In this document: piece by piece, positions 22,103-48,494 of the stretch
How positions within the stretch are numbered: position 1 is the stretch's first letter
Layout of the letters: every line of letters starts with the position of its first letter
Origin: Gemmatimonadota bacterium
Lineage (GTDB): Bacteria; Latescibacterota; UBA2968
Direction: 5' to 3'
Assembly (NCBI GenBank): GCA_002727195.1
Contig: PBWH01000005.1
Span: forward strand, 260,665 to 324,664
Length of the DNA stretch: 64,000 nt
Made by a program: the position numbers and the translations under genes
The notes under the pieces: model-generated
Database searches by the model: none
Seen by the model: the letters and a program-made list of their open reading frames with translations, nothing else
What the model was told of the DNA's origin: nothing

Positions 22103-23551
22103 ATGTTCAATCCCTTTAAAAAGGGTGGCGGCAATCGGCGGAAGAACGCCCTCGAGAAGATCCTGTCGAATTTTGCTCAGATGGGGCCGAACTACGTCAA
22201 CTGCAGCCTGCTAAAGCTCAGCAACGGCGAGGAGGCAGACGAGGATCTCGACCGCGCTTTCGTGTTCAAGCACGGGGAAGAGGTGCTTGTACAGAACAAG
22301 GCGTTCTACATCAGTACGCCTGATCGGCTGAAGTCAGAGGACCAGTCCAAGTTCACGGGCAAGGGTGAGATCGTCCACCTATGCTATCTGTTCAAGGGCA
22401 TCCCGCACACTGTCGACTGCAAAGTCATGGGTCGCGTACGGTTTCCCGAGCACCTGATGGACGACATGGCGCCCCGCATCCCAAGCGCCTACATGCTCCG
22501 ACCGGTGGGCAACATCCGGAAGCAGGAGAAACGACAGTTCCTGCGCTACTCTCACAAGGTTGGCGGTAGCGGTCAGCGTCGCGTCTACAGCCAGATCCTG
22601 TTCGACCTCTTCGTCACCAAGACGGACATCACCTTCCCTGACGAAGGCCCACTACCGCCGAAACTGGCCGATCTCCACACGATCGCCTTCTCCGACGAAA
22701 TTGAACTCGATGAACCGACGCCGGCAGACGTCGTAAATTTCATGAAGAACTCGATCCGGCTGAACCCGCGTGAGTCTCGCGTCGTCTTCGTCGGTAAGCC
22801 TTTCATGGAAGACCGAACGAACAAGGTGGCTCTGCTGGACCTCGGGAGTTCTGACGTGCTGGGTCTCGAAACATCCAAGGAAGATTCGCAGTTCTACATA
22901 CGTAAGCCGCCGCTCTTCTCGGCCGACAAGAAGGATCCGACCAGCCTGGCCAACGCGGACGAGGTCGTGCTGAGCTTCCACACCCGCGTGAGTTCAGATA
23001 CCCCGACCGAGTACTACGACCTCATCTCCGAGGTGACCCGAATCGGAATGGAGAACATCACCGTTCGCACGAATGGTGAAATCCGGAAAGAGGCTGGCTA
23101 CAGCGTCGAACTCGCAGACTTCAGCATCGGTGGTATCAAGATGGATTCGAGCCGCGGTTTCCTCGAGTATGTGCTCGGCGAAGACTACGGCCTGATGGAC
23201 CTGGAAGAACAGATCCACGTGCTCCAGAGCACGTGCTACCTGCTCAATTTCTACCCGAAGCTGCGATTCAACCGCGAGACGGAAATCTACCAGCCGAAGG
23301 AAGTGCCGATGCGGATCCAGATCCTGGGCAAGATCGTGCGTGTCGAACTGTCAAAGCCGGCTGAGGGCGAACATCCCGAGATTGAGGCATTCGGGATGAA
23401 GTTCTATTACGATCCTGCAGAATACTCGCGTGACACATACGAGTACGACCGCTGGGAACTGATTCCCGACTTCAAAGAGAACAAGCATTTCCGCGAGATC
23501 CACAACTCGCTAAACGGCCTAATCGCCTCCCTCGAGATCCAAACCCGCTAG
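22103..23551 (+). CDS. Large PilZ-signature protein (paralog of 47076..48494)
   Basis: KQEKRQFLRYSHKVGG (RxxxR, residues 144-148), VELADFSIGGIKM (DxSxxG, residues 339-344), C-terminal HFREIHNSLNGLIASLE shared with the paralog. Confidence 0.75.
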   Translation: MFNPFKKGGGNRRKNALEKILSNFAQMGPNYVNCSLLKLSNGEEADEDLDRAFVFKHGEEVLVQNKAFYISTPDRLKSEDQSKFTGKGEIVHLCYLFKGIPHTVDCKVMGRVRFPEHLMDDMAPRIPSAYMLRPVGNIRKQEKRQFLRYSHKVGGSGQRRVYSQILFDLFVTKTDITFPDEGPLPPKLADLHTIAFSDEIELDEPTPADVVNFMKNSIRLNPRESRVVFVGKPFMEDRTNKVALLDLGSSDVLGLETSKEDSQFYIRKPPLFSADKKDPTSLANADEVVLSFHTRVSSDTPTEYYDLISEVTRIGMENITVRTNGEIRKEAGYSVELADFSIGGIKMDSSRGFLEYVLGEDYGLMDLEEQIHVLQSTCYLLNFYPKLRFNRETEIYQPKEVPMRIQILGKIVRVELSKPAEGEHPEIEAFGMKFYYDPAEYSRDTYEYDRWELIPDFKENKHFREIHNSLNGLIASLEIQTR

Positions 23552-47075: not shown

Positions 47076-48494
47076 TTATCTCTCCAGGTAAGCAAGCAAC
47101 CCGTTGAGGGCCCGATGGATCTCCTTGAAGTGCGGGTTCTCCCTGAGTGCGCGAAGCGGCTCCCACGATTTGACTTCGTAGTTCATCGAATCGTAGTCGG
47201 CCGGGTCGAACCGGAAGGCCACACCCAAGTTGGCGACACGACCCAAATCCTTGCCCGTGTCGATACTTCCATCCACGATCTCCCCGATCACCGGAATCAC
47301 CGGCGGCACGTCAGGCTTGTAGATCGCCAGATCCTGCTGGAAGAACAGTCGCGGGTAGAAGTTTAGCAGCAAACCGGTGCCTTCGAGCAGGGACACCAAA
47401 TGCTCGGGATCTTCAGGTACGGACTCGCCGCCCATCAGGTAGGTCTCGAGAAGAGGGCTGTTCTGCAGGCAGGCGCCGCTCACACTGAAGTCGCGAAGGA
47501 CGACAGGCATACCTGTCTGCTTCTGGATGGATCCCTTGGGGCGGACCGTCAGTACTTTGACGCCGGACTTGTGGACGCGACACACCCATCTATGGTGCAG
47601 ATCAGCGCCCTGGACGAACTCGCGAATCGCAAAGTTCAGGACGACGATATCTCCTTCGCGCAACTCGACATCGTCGCGCTTCGTGTCCAGCCGGTTCGGC
47701 CGCCTCAGATGGATCTGGGTACCCCGGGCTTCACCATCGAGCCCGAGCACAGCGCTGCTTCCGACAGGCACCAAGTCTGTTCGGCCAGACCGCAGGTCGT
47801 GCTCAGCCTTCGAGATATACACCGACCTCAAGTAGTTCGGATTTGACTGGATGTATCTGTGGAAGAGAGCGACCAGCTCTTCTGGCTTCTCGCACGACTT
47901 GACGTCGGCGGGAATGGCATCGTCGCCTGCATAAGGCAGAATTTCCGGGCCGCTGTCCGCGCTCCCGCTCAGCGCCACCCGCTCCGCATACGCGTCGAAC
48001 CGGAAGTGAGGGGCGACCTGTGGACCTTTGATGCCTCGTACATGAGCAAACCTGAGGGATCGACGGTTCTCGTTCTTCTTCACCGGACCAACAGGCTTCA
48101 GCTTGAAACCGATAGCCACGCGGGGCTCCAGATGCTGGAGCAGACGGTCCGTAAACCGAACTCGCTGCACGACCTCGCAGGTCAGGTGGTATGGCGTACG
48201 ATTGTGATGGAAACTCAGGCTGACCTGTTCACCTTTTCCGCGCAGGATGCCGGACGAGAGCTTGTACCCAGCCGGCGGAGCCAGGTAGAAGTGGCCCTCA
48301 CGCGCGTAGAGCTCGTTCGGTCGTGCGTAAAACGTGGCGAGACCGACCTCCTCCTGAACGTCCTCACCAGCGGCATTGGAGACGATCGTGCAGACGGCGG
48401 ATCGTGTATGAAACGCGTTTAGTTTCTTGATCGCAGGATCGCCAGTAGTGGGCCGTTTCTGAGTCGGAGTTTTCTTGAAGATTTTCGCAAGCAT
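47076..48494 (-). CDS. Large PilZ-signature protein (paralog of 22103..23551)
   Basis: KKNENRRSLRFAHVRG (RxxxR, residues 144-148), VVLRDFSVSGACL (DxSxxG, residues 335-340), C-terminal HFKEIHRALNGLLAYLE. Confidence 0.75.
   Translation of the reverse strand: MLAKIFKKTPTQKRPTTGDPAIKKLNAFHTRSAVCTIVSNAAGEDVQEEVGLATFYARPNELYAREGHFYLAPPAGYKLSSGILRGKGEQVSLSFHHNRTPYHLTCEVVQRVRFTDRLLQHLEPRVAIGFKLKPVGPVKKNENRRSLRFAHVRGIKGPQVAPHFRFDAYAERVALSGSADSGPEILPYAGDDAIPADVKSCEKPEELVALFHRYIQSNPNYLRSVYISKAEHDLRSGRTDLVPVGSSAVLGLDGEARGTQIHLRRPNRLDTKRDDVELREGDIVVLNFAIREFVQGADLHHRWVCRVHKSGVKVLTVRPKGSIQKQTGMPVVLRDFSVSGACLQNSPLLETYLMGGESVPEDPEHLVSLLEGTGLLLNFYPRLFFQQDLAIYKPDVPPVIPVIGEIVDGSIDTGKDLGRVANLGVAFRFDPADYDSMNYEVKSWEPLRALRENPHFKEIHRALNGLLAYLER

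Follow-up and report, generated by a model that had tools for sequence, protein, structure and literature searches.

YcgR, a flagellar brake of bacteria, binds c-di-GMP (cyclic di-GMP) between its two domains, with an exposed C-terminal helix that contacts MotA and an N-terminal domain that contacts FliG (PMC12713396). In the spirochaete YcgR^GAZ proteins (DUF1577), a GAF-like domain is inserted after the RxxxR motif and the first PilZ strand; one of these proteins, LIC_11920, binds c-di-GMP and its arginine mutant does not (PMC11800159). XCC6012, cited in the same paper, does not bind c-di-GMP. The current study concerns a gene whose product resembles YcgR but has a PilZ domain that is probably interrupted, encoded in a 64,000-nucleotide stretch of a Latescibacterota genome (GenBank assembly GCA_002727195.1, contig PBWH01000005.1, positions 260,665 to 324,664), referred to here as the window.

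The product of this gene is probably a YcgR-type effector whose c-di-GMP site is made up of RxxxR and DxSxxG, with a PilZN domain nested between PilZ strands 1 and 2, as judged from sequence comparison and structure models. The same evidence supports a predicted layout, from N to C terminus, of PilZN-a, RxxxR, PilZ strand 1, PilZN-b, the remaining PilZ and a C-terminal helix. The parts are as follows, L020 being an insert-less homologue described below.

22103-23551, forward strand: gene for the YcgR-like protein whose PilZ domain is probably interrupted; open reading frame of 482 amino acids, with orthologues and hisG synteny
22145-22522, forward strand: PilZN-a, predicted N-terminal YcgR-N-like domain and its leading helix, residues ~15-140; fold matches to MrkH and VCA0042, weak Pfam PilZNR matches in 3 of 25 members, model strands in 31-134
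22532-22546, forward strand: RxxxR motif RQFLR, residues 144-148, predicted first c-di-GMP half-site; conservation of R144 and R148
22580-22633, forward strand: putative PilZ strand 1, residues ~160-177, VYSQILFDLFVTKTDI; model strand 163-177, aligned with the strand that follows RxxxR in L020
22721-23089, forward strand: PilZN-b, predicted inserted second YcgR-N-like domain, residues ~207-329; profile match to PilZN-a, gap in L020, fold search with the insert leading to VCA0042
23090-23470, forward strand: predicted remaining PilZ barrel, residues 330-456; model strands 337-341, 344-348, 377-389, 405-416, 427-442 and 447-453, L020 alignment
23117-23134, forward strand: DxSxxG motif DFSIGG, residues 339-344, predicted second c-di-GMP half-site; conservation of G344
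23471-23548, forward strand: predicted C-terminal helix, residues ~457-482, HFREIHNSLNGLIASLE; model helix 461-479 (low confidence), nearly invariant residues

The preliminary description had noted an open reading frame of this length with RQFLR and DFSIGG at these residues, and this is confirmed by translation, orthologues and conservation. Orthologues in sister genera are 71% and 65% identical, and the 71% identical one, in another genus, lies upstream of hisG in the same placement as in the window. Named records that contain orthologues are mostly metagenome-assembled genomes labelled Candidatus Latescibacterota. The reading frame is a real conserved gene, as shown by orthologues of this similarity, of which one or more share the position ahead of hisG. 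R148 and D339 are 191 residues apart, the spacing being 183-198 in most members.

Conservation was assessed in an alignment of 25 sequences, the most distant at ~24% identity, and in 37 aligned sequences. R144, R148 and G344 are among 10 invariant columns of the former; in the latter, all 37 have R144, 32 have R148 and 36 have G344. D or N at 339 and S at 341 are retained in nearly all sequences outside one degenerate clade, and both arginines are present in every aligned sequence outside the clade of five. In this supported clade, from family f4 (L042:2170-3675, L029:383-1945, L045:4635-6215, L046:4722-6218 and L031:1081-2715), RxxxR has become RxxxQ and [DN]xSxxG has become NxRxNG, with Q for R148 and R for S341. 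From the sequences, the joint decay of the two motifs was probably one event, and the clade is likely a non-binding paralogue.

An earlier suggestion was that either a domain of 170-190 residues separates the two halves of the ligand site or the protein has an undescribed PilZ-derived fold. An inserted domain is supported, at ~123 residues (207-329) in place of the longer estimate; as this reading fits, a new fold is not needed. It is concluded, from sequence and models taken together, that the insert is a putative second PilZN-like domain, because of an alignment gap in L020, a profile match to PilZN-a and fold matches to VCA0042. L020 (838-2061, genome G033) aligns to residues 4-474 (P=4.5e-22) with a single large gap at 207-329, and its RxxxR and DxSxxG lie 69 residues apart; its PilZN region compared with PF07238 gives an expectation value (E) of 0.006. 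Comparison of PilZN-a (15-150) with the insert (195-334) by hhalign gave P=2.1e-7 and a score of 46, against a maximum of 19.3 (mean 11.4, standard deviation 2.1) in 200 column shuffles and P=0.07 with a reversed profile. With disjoint sequence sets on each side, the match held at P=1.5e-4 and 1.6e-5. In the models, strands make up most of the insert, alongside one or two helices, and a helix-then-strands order agrees between the two regions. The insert modelled alone (mean predicted local distance difference test, pLDDT, 64) has VCA0042 as its two best Protein Data Bank (PDB) matches, with probabilities of 0.99 and 0.92 but E of 0.03 and 0.2.

Its origin may lie in a duplicate that was inserted, or in a tandem duplication and a later deletion, and L020 may either retain the ancestral state or have lost the insert secondarily. 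L020 is the sole insert-less homologue found; it has an N-terminal hydrophobic segment, and its protein is probably membrane anchored. An S1-type ribosomal protein identity for the insert, raised by a weak profile match (E 1.6), was set aside: the match to PilZN-a is far stronger and no S1 or OB entry is at the top of the fold search.

A full-length AlphaFold2 model was built from nine sequences (mean pLDDT 66, predicted template modelling score 0.58). Confidence is good at 331-380, in the PilZ part, and poor at 142-165 and 457-482. Searched against 350,542 PDB chains, the model has as top matches MrkH and VCA0042 (E 2.7e-4 to 2.7e-3, over 250-330 columns), both of which are two-domain PilZN-PilZ c-di-GMP receptors. 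These matches do not depend on the motifs. The C-terminal block, which had been described as conserved and of no recognizable family, is indeed conserved (H467, L470, L473 and L477 are nearly invariant), and is best read as the usual helix after a PilZ barrel.

We infer a c-di-GMP-dependent flagellar-motor effector of the YcgR type. A PilZN domain would span residues ~15-140, the PilZ barrel would start with RxxxR (144-148) and strand 1 (~160-177), and the duplicated PilZN (~207-329) would be nested behind strand 1 and ahead of strand 2. The barrel would resume at DxSxxG (339-344) and close with the conserved C-terminal helix, by its position a putative counterpart of the MotA-contacting C-tail of YcgR. 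c-di-GMP would bind where RxxxR and DxSxxG meet in one pocket, rearranging PilZ against the PilZN domains. For such a meeting of the motifs, their shared conservation, their loss as a pair in one clade and their 69-residue spacing in L020 are indirect evidence. The C-terminal helix could then be exposed for the stator protein MotA and the PilZN domains could touch the rotor protein FliG, both as in YcgR, and the motor would be slowed or biased. The convergence of the motifs, ligand binding, the partners and the effect on the motor are all predictions of this scheme.

The distribution of the family was examined in 392 genomes, ~330 of them outside the phylum, with one genome per species and thin coverage outside the phylum. 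Members were found only in 20 genomes of one class around Latescibacterota; none was found in the ~330 genomes outside the phylum, nor is the family present in FliG-positive genomes outside the class. Genome-wide pattern scans gave no match with the single protein and seven loci with a close alignment. Within the class (48 genomes), the family is present in 20 of 22 FliG-positive and 0 of 26 FliG-negative genomes (Fisher P=1.4e-11, relatedness not corrected). Family and FliG also divide genera internally (3 versus 8 genomes in g13, 3 versus 1 in g12), and joint loss or gain therefore took place more than once. In three genera a paralogue lies 6-8 kb from fliG, though in no flagellar operon. 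GGDEF matches are more numerous in family-bearing genomes, at 2-8 per genome, and these genomes mostly carry canonical PilZ domains too, in a 65-genome search. The canonical PilZ of the window genome, L001 (G000:C25:15599-15904), scored 26.2 bits in a single-genome search, was not recovered in the 65-genome search and is counted as present. At G000:C31:113724-114590 and similar loci, in several class genomes with and without FliG, there are two GGDEF-like matches per protein, one of them weak.

Several observations weigh against a YcgR-type c-di-GMP effector. The protein itself has no match in Pfam, NCBIfam or PDB sequence scans, and the PF07238 profile does not match it; across the family, the PilZ and PilZNR profiles reach only E ~0.03, in 2 and 3 of 25 members, respectively. 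The failure of PF07238 reflects the sensitivity of the profile rather than a defining property of the family. Profile comparison with a small home-made set of canonical PilZ domains from the same phylum aligned the DxSxxG block alone, and weakly (P=0.004). Both models are of only moderate overall confidence, and pLDDT drops under 50 at RxxxR and at the C-terminal helix. The window gene adjoins hisG, and gene neighbourhoods place no flagellar operon around it. Lastly, co-occurrence is not specific to the motor, since genomes that lose flagella also lose c-di-GMP enzymes and canonical PilZ; because GGDEF and canonical PilZ co-occur with the family, its profile marks a flagellum and c-di-GMP package, not the motor alone.

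It is unlikely, though worth weighing, that PilZ and PilZN serve here purely as a protein-protein module that binds no c-di-GMP, or that binding serves a role other than motility, such as histidine metabolism or exopolysaccharide. The several paralogues per genome, with divergent motifs and one clade that lacks them, would fit such a role, as would hisG synteny in more than one genus. Against this, the motifs are strictly conserved in the other clades and the family co-occurs with FliG. Family f4, moreover, does not share the hisG neighbourhood: its members lie next to a Lon protease and a sigma-54 regulator.

A somewhat poorer prospect is that three barrels lie in tandem and are not nested, with RxxxR in a separate degenerate barrel (~140-205) and a C-terminal PilZ that lacks strand 1 and RxxxR, so that there is no shared site. 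The same sequence would result if a PilZN-PilZ unit had been duplicated in tandem and a deletion had followed, and the RxxxR region is poorly modelled. However, RxxxR is separated from the insert by only ~60 residues with one long strand, which are too few to make a barrel. The DxSxxG strand starts right after PilZN-b, which leaves strand 1 missing unless 163-177 provides it. In L020 the two halves are joined directly, and the two motifs are retained together and, in one clade, lost together.

It is very improbable that the protein belongs, as a remote relative, to the spirochaete YcgR^GAZ family, with a diverged GAF-like (GAZ) domain as its insert. The insertion position is identical (PMC11800159) and the overall plan is similar. 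However, DUF1577 (PF07614) is unmatched in the window genome and its relatives; of the 392 genomes, just two had a match, both from one other family. The insert profile aligns with a GAZ protein only at the DxSxxG end, and the strand-rich insert, with VCA0042 as its best fold match, has no GAF entry among the 50 matches listed; its strong match to PilZN-a also argues against this origin. A GAF or GAZ identity was rejected on the missing DUF1577, the profile mismatch and the fold matches. A chance co-occurrence of the two motifs in an unrelated protein has a negligible probability: short motifs can arise randomly and the protein has no database family match, but on the aligned sequences chance is excluded because R144, R148 and G344 are kept across relatives as distant as those of the 25-sequence set, and the fold matches to PilZN-PilZ receptors are independent of them.

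Four family members are present in the window genome: the gene at 22103-23551, one on contig 21, one of 666 residues on contig 8, and a second copy within the window:

47076-48494, reverse strand: paralogue of the same family, 472 amino acids, motifs RRSLR and DFSVSG

This paralogue is 32% identical over residues 29-478 and sits in a distinct clade, a few members of which have C or G at S341 and retain both arginines. Long members of 666-690 residues (L047:4866-6863, L043:4542-6539 and L041:319-2388) have an acidic low-complexity stretch within PilZN-a and a larger insert, with the motifs 254 residues apart. In L084:4189-5970 (G021), an in-frame N-terminal extension resembling a signal or transmembrane segment precedes the family domain. 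At L087:5962-7402 and L026, on contigs of metagenome-assembled genomes, the family genes are in two reading frames or contain a stop, through assembly indels or decay.

The family is missed by curated profiles, and flagellar c-di-GMP effectors of a whole class may thus be left unannotated. If the nested layout is correct, the loop between PilZ strands 1 and 2 would be a general port for domain insertion, and the protein would act on the motor through two PilZN arms facing the rotor, which could, for example, bridge two FliG subunits. Together with YcgR^GAZ it would provide a second domain type at the same PilZ loop, which suggests that the ligand site tolerates insertion there and that evolution exploits it to give a motor brake different partners. 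Members with both motifs, the clade with both damaged and the insert-less homologue offer natural controls for binding.

In canonical PilZ domains, the two motifs lie within one continuous domain of ~100 residues; here they are split by the insert. The family resembles YcgR, FlgZ and MotI in having PilZN and PilZ, RxxxR and [DN]xSxxG, a C-terminal helix and an occurrence in flagellated genomes; it differs from the classical form, in which PilZN is single and the PilZ barrel uninterrupted. By fold, the full model matches VCA0042 (2rde, 3kyg) and MrkH (5ejl, 5kec) best, and so does the insert alone with VCA0042, but neither protein has an insert and MrkH is a transcription factor. tPilZ XCC6012 (3RQA) and YcgR-like proteins of Myxococcota and Deltaproteobacteria have extra sequence in the same loop, although it is helical and not a folded barrel (PMC11800159). 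No report of PilZN nested in PilZ was found in the open-licence literature, and this layout seems to be undescribed. The insertion position has one close published precedent in YcgR^GAZ, in which PilZN is likewise followed by a PilZ barrel that holds an entire inserted domain behind RxxxR and strand 1; there too both motifs are conserved, genomes have several paralogues and the family is restricted to a clade. There c-di-GMP binding is measured and in the present family it is predicted; the present family also lies outside Spirochaetota, and its insert is a putative second PilZN-like domain in place of a GAF-like one. It is reasonably likely that the PilZ barrel was opened here by a duplicate of the PilZN domain of the same protein, independently of the spirochaete GAZ insertion.
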